NCBI GenBank assembly: GCA_013360485.1
Contig: JABWBN010000007.1
Location: 1-45,110 of the forward strand
DNA from: Burkholderiaceae bacterium
GTDB lineage: Bacteria; Pseudomonadota; Gammaproteobacteria; Burkholderiales; Burkholderiaceae_C
Length of the DNA stretch: 45,110 nucleotides
Reading direction: 5' to 3'
The notes beneath the pieces are model-generated. The model saw nothing but the letters and a program-made list of their open reading frames with translations. It was not told the DNA's origin and searched no databases. The position numbers were made by a program, and so were the translations under genes. Shown piece by piece: positions 32,115-37,488 of the stretch (within the stretch, counting starts at the first letter, position 1; each line of letters starts with the position of its first letter).

Positions 32115-33896
32115 TCACAGTTCCTCGGACCCCAGCAGCATCTCGGTGATGCCCTTTCCCGCCTGCACCATGGGCCAGACGTTCTCGGTCGGGTCGGTGC
32201 GCACGTCGAGGAACACGGTGCGGTCTTTCAAGCGCAGCAGTTCCTTGAGCGCAGGCTCCACTTCGGACGGCTTGTCGATGCGGATGCCGACGTGCCCGTA
32301 GGCCTCGGCCAACTTCACGAAGTCGGGCAATGCATCCATGTAGCTGTGCGAATAGCGTCCGCCGTAGTCGAGCTGTTGCCACTGCCGCACCATGCCGAGA
32401 TAGCGGTTGTTCAAGGAGACAATCTTCACCGGCGTGTTGTACTGCGCGCAGGTCGAGAGCTCCTGGATGCACATCTGGATCGACCCCTCGCCCGTGATGC
32501 AGACGACTTCGGACTCCGGCTTGGCCAGCTTGATGCCCATGGCATACGGCAAGCCCACCCCCATGGTTCCAAGCCCGCCGGAGTTGATCCAGCGTCGCGG
32601 CTCCTCGAACCGGTAGAACTGAGCCGCCCACATCTGGTGTTGGCCGACGTCAGAAGTGATGTAGACGTCCTGCCCACGGGTAAGCTCGCCCAGGGTCTCG
32701 ACCACATACTGGGGCTTGATCACGTCGGTGCTGCGCTTGTAGGCCAGGCATTCGCGCTTGCGCCACTCGTTGATCTGCGACCACCAGGACGACAGCGCGC
32801 CCACGTCCGGCCGCGCCGGGTTCTCACGCAGGTGTGCAAGCATCTCCTGCAGCACGTCCTTGGTGTCGCCCACGATGGGAATGTCCACCCGAACGCGCTT
32901 CGAGATCGACGACGGATCGATGTCGATGTGAATGATCTTGCGCTCGACCTGCGCGAAGTGCTTCGGGTTGCCGATCACGCGATCGTCGAAGCGTGCGCCC
33001 ACCGCAAGCAGCACATCACAGTGCTGCATGGTCATGTTGGCCTCGTAGGTTCCGTGCATCCCGAGCATGCCCAGGAACTTCGGGTCGCTCGCCGGCGTGG
33101 AACCCAGCCCCATCAGGGTGTTGGTGCACGGAAATCCGAGGACGTCGGCCAGTTCGCGCAATTCCGCGGTTGCGTTGCCGAGGATCACCCCACCGCCGGT
33201 GTAGATGTAGGGCCGCTTGGCGCCCAGCAGCAACTGCATGGCCTTGCGGATCTGGCCGCCATGGCCCTTTTTGGCAGGGCTGTATGAGCGCATCTCGACC
33301 CGCTCGGGATAGCTGAACGAACACGTCTTGACCGAGACATCCTTGGGCACATCGACAACCACCGGGCCCGGACGGCCGGTGCGGGCAATGTGGAATGCCT
33401 TCTTCATCGTGGCAGCCAAGTCGCGCACGTCCTTCACGAGGAAATTGTGCTTGACGACCGGGCGTGTGATGCCGACGGTGTCGCACTCCTGGAAGGCATC
33501 CAGGCCAATCGCTGGTGTGGGAACTTGCCCGGTGACGATCACCATCGGGATGGAATCCATGTACGCCGTGGCGATGCCGGTCACAGCGTTGGTGACGCCG
33601 GGGCCGGACGTCACCAGTGCGACGCCGACCTCCCCGGTAGCCCGCGCGTAGCCATCGGCCGCGTGCACGGCCGCCTGCTCATGGCGAACCAATACGTGCT
33701 GGATCGACTCCTGCTTGTACAGGGCGTCGTAGATGTAGAGCACCGCGCCACCTGGGTAGCCCCAGATGTACTTGACGCCCTCTGCCTGCAGGCAGCGGAC
33801 GATGATTTCCGAGCCGTTGATCTCGGTGGAATGGGTGGGGGGGGAATGCGGCTGTGCCGATGCGGCACGCTTGACTTCCGCGGCAGACATGTCCAT
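32115..33896 (-). CDS. ilvI: Acetolactate synthase catalytic (large) subunit
   Basis: This 593-residue ThDP/FAD enzyme makes acetolactate from two pyruvates (or acetohydroxybutyrate), the first common step to valine, leucine and isoleucine. The N-terminal ThDP Pyr domain has EGVKYIWGYPGGAVLYIYD (family G-Y-P-G-G, about 60-78) and the conserved VLVRHEQAAVHAADGYARA with the catalytic Glu. The C-terminal ThDP domain has ITGEGSIQMCIQEL and SLNNRYLGMVRQW; the usual GDG is GEG here. ATG 33896 has AGAGG upstream; the frame extends to 33956. The operon leader before it is interrupted by the group II intron. Confidence 0.97.
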   Translation of the reverse strand: MDMSAAEVKRAASAQPHSPPTHSTEINGSEIIVRCLQAEGVKYIWGYPGGAVLYIYDALYKQESIQHVLVRHEQAAVHAADGYARATGEVGVALVTSGPGVTNAVTGIATAYMDSIPMVIVTGQVPTPAIGLDAFQECDTVGITRPVVKHNFLVKDVRDLAATMKKAFHIARTGRPGPVVVDVPKDVSVKTCSFSYPERVEMRSYSPAKKGHGGQIRKAMQLLLGAKRPYIYTGGGVILGNATAELRELADVLGFPCTNTLMGLGSTPASDPKFLGMLGMHGTYEANMTMQHCDVLLAVGARFDDRVIGNPKHFAQVERKIIHIDIDPSSISKRVRVDIPIVGDTKDVLQEMLAHLRENPARPDVGALSSWWSQINEWRKRECLAYKRSTDVIKPQYVVETLGELTRGQDVYITSDVGQHQMWAAQFYRFEEPRRWINSGGLGTMGVGLPYAMGIKLAKPESEVVCITGEGSIQMCIQELSTCAQYNTPVKIVSLNNRYLGMVRQWQQLDYGGRYSHSYMDALPDFVKLAEAYGHVGIRIDKPSEVEPALKELLRLKDRTVFLDVRTDPTENVWPMVQAGKGITEMLLGSEEL

Positions 33897-33982
33897 TTCG
33901 AACCTCTGTGAATTTCTCTGACGAAAAACCATCGGTGCCCCTCCTCGCGCCCTCATGAGGCGGAATCAGAACCTGCGCGATC

Positions 33983-34013
33983 AAAAACGGCGACTCCCGG
34001 GGTCGGTGAGCCG
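33983..34013 (-). terminator. Probable attenuator terminator of the ilv leader
   Basis: On the minus strand a stem CGGC/GCCG and an inner GAC/GTC with a seven-base loop stand directly before five T. It lies about 87 bases upstream of the ilvI ATG, between the intron 3' end and ilvI. It fits an attenuator at the end of the ilv leader RNA, though the stem is broken by a five-base bulge. Confidence 0.5.
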
Positions 34014-34077
34014 GCTTGAGACCTCAATCGCTTTGTGGAGGGTAGGGACAGACCATTGCTGGCCCATCCCCCCCTAA

Positions 34078-34111
34078 GAACCGGACGTGCCTCTTTCGAG
34101 GCATCCGGCTC
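34078..34111 (-). ncRNA. Group II intron domain V
   Basis: A 34-nt hairpin starting GAGCCGGATGCCTCGAAAG and ending GGCACGTCCGGTTC has the catalytic triad and GAAA tetraloop pattern of bacterial group II introns. Domain VI follows at about 34035-34073 with the stem GGGGGGGATGGG / CCCTACCC. It marks the 3' part of the ribozyme. Confidence 0.92.
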
Positions 34112-34173
34112 ACGCACATCACTTGCTTGTAACCAGCCTCGAGTTTACCCGAAGCGGTTAACAAGCCGAAGCC

Positions 34174-35874
34174 TCATTCCGAGGCCGGCTTCGCAACGGT
34201 CAAACCGTTGGCATGCACTCTGGCGTGGCACACCGGATGCAGCAGCACCCGGTTGGACAACGAGTCCGACCCACCCGCCACCCGATGGATCAGGTGGTGG
34301 TCGTGCCAGCCCGTCTCTTCCGACAAGACGCCGCCGCAGAGGGCGCACTGCCCGTGCTGGGACAGGAACAGCGAGGCCCACTGCCGCCGGTACGCCATGC
34401 TTCGCTGCAGGCGCCGTGAGCGCAGGTCTTCGCCGTATGCCTCCCACCGCGGATCAAAGGGGTTGTAGCCGCCCTTGACCTTCTGGTGTCGCACGATGGC
34501 CGTATCGGCGAGCCGATACAGGCGCGACCATCTCGGCGTGTCGTCCTCGACCGGAACCCGAACTGCAAATTCCGGCCTGCCGTCGACGGAGGGCCAGTAC
34601 TTCGTGGCCACCCATCTCGGGTTCTTGTTCGGATGTCTCCGACGTGCCCAGCGCGTCAACCGCCACCACAGCAGCGAGTCGAGTCTGCTGAACGTCTCCT
34701 TCGCGACCACCGGCTGGTGGTACCTCGCCCAGCCCCGCAGGACCGGGTTCAGCAGCTGGATGAGCTCCGCCTGCTTCACCGTCTTGTGCGACACGACGAT
34801 CTCCTTCACCTTGCCATAGAACGCTTGCACGTTCTTCTTGCTCGGCTTGATCAGCAGGGTTCCCGAGTACTTCCGGAAATTCCAACCGAGGAAATCGAAT
34901 CCCTGGTCGATGTGTGTGACTCGCGTCTTCGCCGGCGACAGTCGCAGCCCTCGTTGTGCGAGGAACGCTTCCATCCACGGCCGGACTTGCGTCTCCAGGA
35001 AGTCTTTCGACATCCCGGTGATCACGAAGTCGTCGGCGTACCGGACCACATTGACCTTGAGCTTCTCGACCTTGGACTTGCCCAGCGCCGCACCGAGGTG
35101 CGCCAGCAGACCCGTCTCCAGTCCGTTCAGTGCCACGTTCGCCAGGGTTGGCGAGATGATGCCGCCTTGCGGCGTGCCTGCTTCGGGGGCCGTCAGTTGG
35201 CCTTTGTAGACCACTCCGGACTTCAACCACTGGTGGACGATTCGCTTGTCCATCCGCGTGTGCTGAACGAGCCACGCATGGTTGATGTGGTCAAAGCAGC
35301 CCTCGATGTCCGCTTCCAGGACCCAGGGGGCCGAGGCCTTCCGGGCGAGGCAGATGAACAACTGGCTCATGGCATCGGCCGTCGAGCGATTGCGCCGAAA
35401 GCCGTAGCTGTTCGGGTCGCTCTGCGACTCCACGACGGGCTCCAGGCCCAGCAGGTGGAGAGCCTGCATCGCCCGGTCGCGCATCGTCGGAATGCCCAGC
35501 GGGCGCTCCTTGCCGTTGGCCTTGGGGATGTAGACCCGCCGTAGAGGCGCGGGCCGGTACCCCCGTTGCTGCTTCAACTGGTCGACGGCCGACCATTTGC
35601 AGGCCGGCGTGTCCCACAGCTCGCGGTCGACGCCTGCCGTCCGCTTGCCTTGGTTCTCTGTCACCCGTCGCACCGCCAGTGCCCTGGCGGAGAACGAGCG
35701 GGTCAGCGACCGCTGCAGGGCTTTCACCCGGCGGTAGTCGCCTTCCTGCGTTGCCTTCGCTATCCGCATCTGCATCGTCCTCACCTGTCGGTCAACTCGC
35801 CGCCAATCGATGGCGTGCCAGGCGTCTGGCAGGTGCGAAGACGCAGAACCATCGGGATCGATGATTTCTTCCAT
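34174..35874 (-). CDS. ltrA: Group II intron reverse transcriptase/maturase with HNH endonuclease
   Basis: This 566-residue protein is encoded in intron domain IV. The N-terminal RT0 region (about 20-85, ending GKRTAGVDREL) precedes the fingers and palm, with GIPTMRDRAMQALHLLGLEP, the LEADIEGCFDHI motif (about 187-198) and the catalytic YADD at 279-282. The maturase X domain follows with GWARYHQPVVAKETF. The C-terminal HNH endonuclease has CALCGG then GWHDHHLIHRVAGGSDSLSN and HPVCHARVHANG. Such proteins splice their intron and insert it into DNA. ATG 35874 has GAGG five bases upstream; the frame continues to 35958 without a ribosome site. All catalytic residues are present. Confidence 0.95.
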   Translation of the reverse strand: MEEIIDPDGSASSHLPDAWHAIDWRRVDRQVRTMQMRIAKATQEGDYRRVKALQRSLTRSFSARALAVRRVTENQGKRTAGVDRELWDTPACKWSAVDQLKQQRGYRPAPLRRVYIPKANGKERPLGIPTMRDRAMQALHLLGLEPVVESQSDPNSYGFRRNRSTADAMSQLFICLARKASAPWVLEADIEGCFDHINHAWLVQHTRMDKRIVHQWLKSGVVYKGQLTAPEAGTPQGGIISPTLANVALNGLETGLLAHLGAALGKSKVEKLKVNVVRYADDFVITGMSKDFLETQVRPWMEAFLAQRGLRLSPAKTRVTHIDQGFDFLGWNFRKYSGTLLIKPSKKNVQAFYGKVKEIVVSHKTVKQAELIQLLNPVLRGWARYHQPVVAKETFSRLDSLLWWRLTRWARRRHPNKNPRWVATKYWPSVDGRPEFAVRVPVEDDTPRWSRLYRLADTAIVRHQKVKGGYNPFDPRWEAYGEDLRSRRLQRSMAYRRQWASLFLSQHGQCALCGGVLSEETGWHDHHLIHRVAGGSDSLSNRVLLHPVCHARVHANGLTVAKPASE

Positions 35875-36512
35875 GCTGTCCTCGTTGGTGAACCCGCCGC
35901 AGACGCACTTCTCCCCCGAGGGGAGGTGCATCCCCTCGGGGTGTCTAGAACTCAGCAACCGGCTAACGACGGTTGCACGACGTGGAAGTGGGCCTGCTTT
36001 CGCAGCGGGGCATGGCGACCCCTATCCCGACCGCTACGGCAGGGCCTTCGCTTTCTCCACGATCCCATACCCCCTCATCCGACAGGTCGCCTTGCGGCTT
36101 CCCTGCCCGTTCACCGAGGTGATCGGGCGGACAATGGGGCTTACCACGTTCCTCTGATGGCCGACAACGCGGTGGTGATCCGCGCCGTCTCTCCGTTTAG
36201 GGCCCGTCTATCCCGGGGCTGCAGCGTCAGCGACGTGCTCCGGCCTCGCACTGGAGCATCCTGGCAGCGTGCCGTTTGGCTATGGCCTGACAGCAGGTTT
36301 GGCCACTCAATGCTTACCCGGGTTCAGACGACGGTTCACTTACGTTGCCCATGCGGAACTCGCCTGGCCTCTCATCCGCCGTCCTGCTGGCAGAGTCCGT
36401 GGTCGTCCTCGCGGATCGAGCCACGCCACCGAAGTGGGAGACGTTGTCGGATGGGCTTCACACAAGGCCGTTGCCAGCCTTGCATGCCATCCTAGGCGAC
36501 TGTTGGTCGCAC

Positions 36513-36812
36513 AACAGGTCACGGCACCGGCGAGCCGGGCGTGACAAGGCACTCAGAGACTTGATCGCTCTTGAAAGACCCGTCTCCCGACGGTGCACGC
36601 CCGCGTTCTGCCCAGGGCAGTTGCGGTGCGCGCCTCTCTCACGGTCTGCCTGGAGAAACCCCAGGCATTCCGTCAACGATCCGCCAAAGGCGGATGCACT
36701 TCGTGGGCCTGTCAGCCCGTGATCAGAGCCAAGGCCCCGATCGCTCTTGAAATGCTGCTTAACCCCGCAGCTAGGGAAGAGCGACACCACGTGTCGCACG
36801 CGAAGCAGCATT
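36513..36812 (-). ncRNA. Structured leader RNA of the ilvIHC operon (5' exon of the intron)
   Basis: These 300 bases between the sigma gene and the intron hold many perfect RNA stems on the ilv strand. The outer arm AATGCTGCTT/AAGCAGCATT (36803-36812 with 36751-36760) encloses the hairpin GCGACAC/GTGTCGC (36781-36797). Further stems are at 36721-36742 (10 bp), 36679-36695, 36648-36666, 36608-36620 and 36518-36545. GTCGCTCTT (36777-36785) can instead pair with AAGAGCGAT (36740-36748), which breaks the inner hairpin and makes a pseudoknot with the outer arm. No leader peptide rich in Ile, Val or Leu with a near stop codon was found. I cannot name a known family. Betaproteobacterial ilv leader motifs exist in Rfam and should be compared. 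Confidence 0.55.
36563..36752. repeat. 14-bp direct repeat inside the ilv leader
   Basis: GATCGCTCTTGAAA occurs at 36563-36576 and again at 36739-36752, identical over exactly 14 bases, with 162 bases between. Both copies contain the segment that can pair with GTCGCTCTT in the leader. It could be a duplicated regulatory arm or the trace of an insertion. Confidence 0.6.
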
Positions 36813-36864
36813 ATTGCATCAGTTGCCAGACAACCTGACCCTGCGGTGATCCGTATGGAGCCGA

Positions 36865-36873
36865 TGACATAAT
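36865..36873 (+). promoter_or_regulatory. Possible extended -10 promoter of the sigma-factor gene
   Basis: TGACATAAT resembles an extended -10 box (TGn-TATAAT) and stands 45 bases before the TTG start of the sigma gene. No good -35 box is seen at 17 bases, which an extended -10 can do without. Weak evidence. Confidence 0.35.
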
Positions 36874-36918
36874 CGCGCCCGCTCTCGCCCGGCCCGTTGC
36901 ACCCCGGGCAGGTCAGCC

Positions 36919-37488
36919 TTGGCAACCGACAAAGAACTCACCGATTTCCTGCGCAGTGTCGAGCGGCGCGCGTTCAAGCGCACCGTGTACGCCGTACGCG
37001 ACGACGATGCAGCGCTGGATATCGTTCAGGACGCCATGATCCGGTTGGCCGAGAAATATGCCGACCACGCCGCCGCCGAGTGGCCCATGCTCTTCCAGCG
37101 CATCCTGTCGAACGCCACCATGGACTGGTTTCGGCGTCAACGCGTGCGCAACGCCGTGATGCAGAACCTCTCGGACTTCGAGGCCGACCACGATGACGGG
37201 GGCGACTTCGACCTGCTGGAGACCCTGGAGGTCGCCGACGGGGTTCTGGGGACGGAAAGCGCGGCCGAGACAGTCTCGCGGGCACAAATTCTGCAACTCA
37301 TCGAGTCCGAGGTCCAACGCCTGCCGACGCGTCAACGCGAAGCGTTTCTGCTGCGTTACTGGGAGGAACTCGATGTTGCAGAGACGGCCCTGGTCATGGG
37401 ATGCTCGGAGGGCAGCGTGAAGACGCATTGCTCGCGAGCGGTACACGCGCTGGCGGCGGCGCTTCGAGCCCAGGGTATCCCATCATGA
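36919..37488 (+). CDS. RNA polymerase sigma factor, ECF-like sigma-70 family
   Basis: This 189-residue sigma factor has region 2 (about 15-80: DIVQDAMIRLAEKYAD and a WFRRQRVRN end) and region 4 (about 134-180: LPTRQREAFLLRYWEELDVAETALVMGCSEGSVKTH), without regions 1 and 3, the ECF plan. The linker between them is longer than usual and acidic (DFEADHDDGGDFD). The start is TTG at 36919 behind GCAGGTC. Its stop overlaps the next gene in ATGA. The following DUF3619 and DUF3106 genes have the layout of an anti-sigma factor and a periplasmic partner. The promoter it serves is not known. Confidence 0.9.
   Translation: MATDKELTDFLRSVERRAFKRTVYAVRDDDAALDIVQDAMIRLAEKYADHAAAEWPMLFQRILSNATMDWFRRQRVRNAVMQNLSDFEADHDDGGDFDLLETLEVADGVLGTESAAETVSRAQILQLIESEVQRLPTRQREAFLLRYWEELDVAETALVMGCSEGSVKTHCSRAVHALAAALRAQGIPS

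Follow-up and report, generated by a model that had tools for sequence, protein, structure and literature searches.

A group II intron beside the -10-like box of an ilv operon, and its relatives at promoter-like sites

A 2015 review lists three target specificities for bacterial group II introns, namely homing sites, terminator motifs and attC sites, and describes group IIC introns as targeting terminators and attC sites; it places most bacterial introns outside housekeeping genes, with exceptions in cyanobacteria and in the CL and ML lineages (PMC4424553). Here we analyze a group II intron in a 45,110-nt stretch of DNA from a Burkholderiaceae bacterium (GCA_013360485.1, contig JABWBN010000007.1, positions 1 to 45,110), which we call the window, together with relatives of this intron at other sites. 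The nearest solved protein to the one that it encodes is 6me0_C (E 6.6e-169), and we take 6me0 to be a group IIB intron RNP of Thermosynechococcus, of the chloroplast-like class. The explanation that best fits the data as a whole, and in which we have good confidence, is a mobile group II intron with a reverse transcriptase/maturase/HNH protein that is lodged at promoter-like sites. A search among openly accessible papers found no report of promoter-lodged group II introns; an earlier description is possible.

In the branched-chain amino acid operon the intron is inserted in the sense orientation, with the -10 region of the promoter on its 5' side and the beginning of the ilvI leader on its 3' side (Table 1). 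The ilvI ORF (33956-32115, minus strand) matches an NCBIfam acetolactate synthase family and is followed by ilvH and ilvC on the same strand. The original prediction of a minus-strand group II intron, co-oriented with ilvI-ilvH-ilvC, is borne out by the Rfam matches and the domains of the intron-encoded protein (IEP), and its placement in the 5' region of the operon, with relatives that have an empty site, by 14/14 congener leaders. Elsewhere in the window, a divergent ORF upstream of the ilv promoter (36919-37488, plus strand) resembles by eye an ECF-type sigma factor, and a sucA RNA motif (RF01070, 74.4 bits) is found at 3388-3304 on the minus strand.

Table 1. Features of the intron and its flanks, numbered from the first letter of the window
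Feature	Position	Strand	Details	Basis
-10-like hexamer AATAAT of ilvI promoter	36810..36815	-	10 nt before intron	sequence; kept in intron-free congeners
IBS2 AATGCT	36807..36812	-	overlaps 3' half of -10 hexamer	covariation with EBS2
IBS1 CTTCGC	36800..36805	-	last 6 nt of 5' exon	covariation with EBS1
Group II intron	34037..36799	-	2,763 nt; start GUGCGACACG, end CUACCCUCC	intron-free congener leaders, EBS/IBS covariation, RF00029 end at 34037
5' part of intron	36513..36799	-	287 nt; "structured leader" of the original prediction	found on intron copies elsewhere
Domain I part (RF02012)	36368..36518	-		Rfam match
EBS2 AGCATT	36309..36314	-		best second, separate place of scan
EBS1 GCGAGG	36244..36249	-		top of all alignment columns and offsets scanned
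IEP: reverse transcriptase, maturase, HNH endonuclease	35871-34174	-	565 aa, ATG start	
Domains V and VI	34037..34113	-	bulged A of domain VI at 34043	RF00029, fold
3' exon	33957..34036	-	rest of ilv leader (ACAAAGCG..., hairpin then T run), then ilvI	

The extent of the intron was determined by comparison with 20 other genomes of the genus, in 14 of which the ilvI locus and its leader could be seen (L017-L030); the remaining five congeners without a visible leader include two whose contigs start inside ilvI and three that were matched only weakly. In all 14 loci the leader is continuous and intron-free, reads ...AATGCTGCTTCGCACAAAGCG... or a similar sequence, and joins 36800 to 34036, which differs from the joint of 36513 to 34034 expected earlier. 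The junction GCTTCGC^ACAAAGCG is identical in eight of these leaders, one base off in four, two bases off in one and further off in one. The window itself reads AATAATGCTGCTTCGC, then GTGCGACACG... over 2.76 kb, and then ACAAAGCG. It follows from these empty leaders and the order in the window that the insertion runs from 36799 to 34037 and that the segment 36513-36799 is included in it. In one congener, G015, this insertion is present at the corresponding position, with 97.5% identity over 36513-36797, 94.5% in the protein gene and 92.8% in the upstream flank. The segment is also found on intron copies at unrelated sites, in L046 (84.0% of 262 aligned bases) and in L047 (74.7% of 261 aligned bases), the latter site being the same as that of L132, before guaB. 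A plasmid search with 36513-36797 gave no match, and one with 34035-36512 gave 1,224 records, none of which covers 80% of the query at one place. Read by eye, TTTCAAGAGCGATC is an exact repeat within the 5' part of the intron (36752-36739 and 36576-36563), and GCGATCAA at its second copy is complementary to TTGATCGC in the downstream ilv leader.

These boundaries revise the earlier ones in several respects. The 5' end had been put at 36512, and the empty sites together with the EBS covariation described below give 36799 instead; at the earlier position GTGCG is present in 12/90 intron copies and GTACG in 45, and in L046 the motif is GCGCG. The 3' end had been put at 34035, and the congener leaders resume at 34036, so the intron ends at 34037. 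The structured leader that was proposed between promoter and intron (36513-36812) turns out to be, over 36513-36799, the 5' part of the intron itself, and no such independent ilv leader element is present in the 14/14 intron-free congener leaders. The exon pairing of CCTGTT and CCGTG does not hold either, as CCTG is internal to the intron in 59/90 copies whatever the site, and EBS1 and EBS2 as found here are different from those pairings. An Rfam scan of 33800-36950 at E values up to 5 gave intron families and no leader family.

One could still picture an intron from 36512 to 34035 that entered a pre-existing structured leader of the ilv operon, or else a twintron whose outer intron begins at 36799. 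In favor of such an arrangement, GTGCG occurs again near 36512, where a strong Rfam match to domain I also starts (RF02012, 36518-36368, 114.8 bits), and CCTGTT and CCGTG are able to pair with AGCAGG and CACGG. In the related introns of tRNA-Gly genes, where the interrupted tRNA sets the 5' end, the RF02012 match has its start 217-233 nt into the intron (4/4 scanned), and therefore the start of this match is not a splice site. The 287-nt segment recurs on copies at other sites and is missing from the 14 congener leaders, and the EBS covariation indicates 36800. A single D5/D6 was found, where a twintron or composite requires two complete introns, and the composite was rejected. Taken together, we consider that this arrangement has next to no chance of being correct, and we continue with one intron from 36799 to 34037.

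Its group II character can be seen at several places. The RF00029 match (34113-34037, 61.8 bits) covers a domain V of canonical fold, with AGC and a two-base bulge, and a domain VI with one bulged A. The 5' end is GUGCG, in line with GUGYG, and was set independently by the empty site and by EBS1 covariation, while GTGCGAC also served to find the relatives. The 3' end does not follow the usual AY, since by the empty-site joint the intron ends in CUACCCUCC with a terminal CC; among the relatives the 3' end is CUACCC, then UCC, UAC, GAC and others. The IEP matches TIGR04416 with 365 bits (cut-off 300), contains RVT_N, RVT_1, GIIM and HNH domains and has the YADD motif. Compared with G015, 531/565 residues are identical, with dN 0.031 and dS 0.145 (dN/dS about 0.21), and the frame is free of stops in both species, which indicates an intact protein under purifying selection.

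For a view of the lineage we collected 110 loci, made up of the best 80 of 259 from genome contigs and 30 from a family search. A locus was accepted when GTGCGAC was found 850-1300 nt before the protein; 96/110 loci pass this rule and fall into 43 clusters by flank identity. Among the 14 loci outside the rule, the sequence available upstream of the protein is shorter than 900 nt in seven, L088 has its start 1365 nt upstream of the protein with TATAAT at spacer 10, and no GTGCGAC-type start was found in L124, L128, L149, L156, L157 and L158. An IEP tree made by a quick method was used solely to show close relatives at different sites; it includes 93/110 loci, and the 17 dropped for an in-frame stop in an extrapolated stretch, truncation or length include the tRNA-Gly and Lysobacterales rows.

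The pairing between intron and exon was searched by aligning the 5' parts of 90 intron copies (protein identity at least 56%) and comparing, for the alignment columns, how well each copy complements its own flank and how well it complements the flanks found elsewhere. Significance was estimated by permutation with one representative per site, for 41/43 clusters, L148 and the tRNA-Gly cluster being below the identity cut. Both an EBS1-IBS1 and an EBS2-IBS2 pairing were found. EBS1 and IBS1 form at least 5 of 6 standard pairs in 41/41 site representatives, which include 37 distinct IBS1 sequences, and the observed mean was reached in 0/10,000 permutations. EBS2 and IBS2 pair well in 25/41 representatives (again 0/10,000), EBS2 having been scored at a fixed offset despite variable spacers, which may account for part of the weak pairing. 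EBS2 varies together with the hexamer, as sites with TATCCT have GTAGG. In the tree, L063 and L086 are sister proteins (branches 0.042 and 0.046) at different sites, with EBS1 and EBS2 changed accordingly; to judge from this pair of sequences, retargeting seems to be quick.

One may ask whether the intron is dead or domesticated, does not splice and is just a long 5' UTR or spacer. Splicing with a 5' exon of 4 nt, as expected here, would indeed be unusual. Against this stand the dN/dS value and the absence of stops in two species, the intact D5/D6, EBS1-IBS1 pairing at every representative site and the presence of closely related copies at different sites, so that we find a dead intron improbable and keep to a mobile one.

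When the 60 nt upstream of each insertion were searched for the best -10 hexamer with no constraint on its place, the spacer was 9-12 nt in 40/43 representatives, 27 of them at 10 (L112, one of the 40, scores poorly). Under a strict rule (T1, A2, T6, at most 2 mismatches) the hexamer is present at 35/43 sites against 46/11,180 control positions, and under a relaxed rule (A2, T6, at most 2 mismatches) at 40/43 sites against 216/11,180, where the controls are positions in the 300 nt upstream of the insertions and both rules were chosen with the flanks already in view. With the relaxed rule, which admits spacers of 9-12 only, 26 sites have a spacer of 10, six of 9, four of 11 and four of 12. It fails at three of the 43, namely L063 (TACCCT, three mismatches), L112 (end of a coding ORF) and L150 (tRNA-Gly), and L127 passes weakly (AATTAT). 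Of the elements of a sigma70-type promoter, the insertion sites have the -10 hexamer and show no -35 enrichment (the mean score is -1.78 for 35 sites and -2.04 for the controls; P=0.31). In a mapping study of Burkholderia cenocepacia, an AT-rich motif with a strong TAnAAT accompanies more than 95% of the 1733 start sites that were mapped, the -35 element is weak, and the distribution of 5' UTR lengths has its maximum at 21-30 nt (PMC4603805).

Downstream of the insertions 34 ORFs were chosen and 30 were tested against NCBIfam; 23/30 match at E 1e-30 or better, several of them under the curated cut-off of the family. The matched genes are ndk, argF, hisZ, an aminotransferase, psd, an ispB-like synthase, uvrC, ppsA, serS, ribF, ptsN, an amgK-like gene, secA, hpnD, a ybaK-type gene, prfB, acuI, pmbA, rimO, coaD, lptD, guaB and ilvE. 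The distance from intron to start codon, with some of the start codons uncertain, is 14 nt for guaB, 16 for acuI, 19 for psd and rimO, 20 for serS, 25 for ribF and coaD, 26 for pmbA, 27 for ndk and 31 for amgK and ilvE, and is larger for argF (61) and hisZ (101). The guaB site was compared with its empty state in the genus of G384, where 10/10 other genomes are contiguous across the joined flanks; all ten have TATAAT, 11 nt and then TCAGGAG, and the sequence upstream of the -10 is variable. At L139 and L140 a promoter-like -10 precedes the intron, and a tRNA-Leu(CAG) gene starts a few bases past the 3' splice site. By sequence comparison, then, the lineage occupies about 40 distinct sites at which a -10-like hexamer precedes the intron by 9-12 nt, and many of these sites are in front of housekeeping genes.

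How this position comes about can be explained in more than one way. One explanation is that the promoter as such is irrelevant and that the intron protein or RNA recognizes TA...T at a distance of 10 nt upstream, a motif that promoters happen to contain. Group II intron proteins contact the distal 5' exon. The D domain of the IEP is described in the review as touching the DNA exons and adding target specificity (PMC4424553), which together with the missing -35 enrichment and the pairing of EBS2 with the 3' half of the hexamer speaks for plain sequence recognition. That EBS2 changes with the hexamer argues that TATAAT is not fixed by the RNA; where the gene is named, the insertions precede a gene of the same direction, in many cases as far from it as a 5' UTR is long, and the intron-free congeners retain the hexamer at guaB although the sequence upstream of it varies. 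We therefore find sequence recognition without promoters unlikely, though worth weighing. Another hypothesis, to which we give a slightly better but still low chance, is retention: the intron lands widely and survives only at promoter starts, where harm is least and transcription is good. Many sites do precede conserved genes, where most other insertions would be harmful, but any place in a 5' UTR should then suffice, and yet the spacer is 10 in 26/40 sites.

Some related introns are found at sites of another kind. A sister lineage (L002, which is G000:C272, and L150, L151, L152, L153, L154 and L155), with an IEP about 51% identical to that of the window, interrupts tRNA-Gly(CCC) genes. It resembles the intron of the window in the RF02012 domain (4/4 scanned), in the GUGCGAC start and in a protein related over most of its length, and differs in its insertion inside the tRNA and in the intact tRNA-Gly(CCC) gene that it bears internally. 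In 7/7 of these loci such a gene stands complete before the intron protein, and in the six loci with visible ends it is inside the intron (L152 is truncated). In the genome of the window (assembly 84.7% complete) the other full-length match to the intron-internal tRNA is only 82% identical. From these sequences, the sister intron seems to supply a replacement for the tRNA-Gly that it breaks. In the Lysobacterales (L112, L115, L123) a similar intron directly follows ...CAGAACTGA or ...CAGAACTAA, where by eye an OmpA/Pal-like ORF has its stop codon; this place is away from a promoter, and EBS1 pairing is still present. At L130, L143, L144, L145, L146 and L148, which with L142 form a separate clade, the intron begins with GTGCGACTCG, and the last bases of its 5' exon are ATG, 9 nt past a -10-like hexamer; to judge from its place, this ATG may be a leaderless start.

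A mechanism that would fit the promoter-like position is as follows. The host promoter would transcribe the intron from about 4 nt upstream of it, because the start is assumed to lie about 7 nt after the hexamer; the element would in this way take over the promoter with no gene interrupted, and the IEP would be translated from the host-promoter RNA. The native leader would be regained by splicing or by cleavage at the 3' end, and the host gene would remain downstream with its own ribosome-binding region, so that it could be expressed from a religated 5' exon, from unspliced RNA or from 3'-cleaved RNA, these being alternatives. IBS2 lies upstream of the expected transcription start and should be absent from the RNA, and its covariation with EBS2 therefore points to recognition of DNA. 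During insertion, EBS2-IBS2 and part of EBS1-IBS1 would act on promoter DNA. The stretch from about -9 to +4 is the DNA that is melted in the open promoter complex. The paired stretch of about -9 to +4 coincides with it, which makes the open complex a candidate target. We infer both splicing and open-promoter targeting from sequence. As a tentative proposal, somewhat less probable than its opposite, the lineage targets initiation: the RNP would reverse-splice into the non-template strand of the promoter at about +4, with EBS2/EBS1 pairing over -9 to +4, an EBS2-IBS2 pairing that is made with DNA only and a 5' exon of 4 nt.

For the ilv operon this has a consequence. The original prediction made branched-chain amino acid synthesis dependent on splicing, which now appears less likely, because the leader and coding region, except about 4 nt, sit downstream of the intron and are intact in unspliced RNA. 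The leader hairpin and the coding region downstream of the intron are unchanged, and the synthesis pathway may tolerate inefficient splicing. The intron-free congeners share a hairpin-like stretch at 33983-34013, which includes a T run, and highly conserved DNA at 33860-33990 that leads into the ilvI start; hairpin and conserved stretch are possibly the attenuator of a short leader.

Promoter-start targeting, if true, would add a fourth to the specificities listed for bacterial group II introns and would be a clear case of an element that exploits host promoters without gene breakage, obtaining the use of a housekeeping promoter while costing the host gene almost nothing. Dozens of introns are found at one fixed place, many before housekeeping genes, and would offer a natural system for splicing with a mostly untranscribed 5' exon. 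Compared with the 6me0 RNP, the intron of the window has the same protein build, D5/D6 and both EBS1 and EBS2; it differs in that its lineage targets positions 9-12 nt after -10-like boxes, with an expected transcribed 5' exon of about 4 nt. Like the group IIC introns, it uses as its landing site a DNA signal of gene expression that lies outside coding regions. Its IEP and EBS2 are presumably unlike those of group IIC, as it has an HNH domain and pairs via both EBS1 and EBS2, and its flanks carry a -10-like hexamer 9-12 nt upstream at 40/43 sites, where those of group IIC would have a terminator or attC. Group IIC introns land where transcription ends, whereas the lineage of the window lands where it would start.
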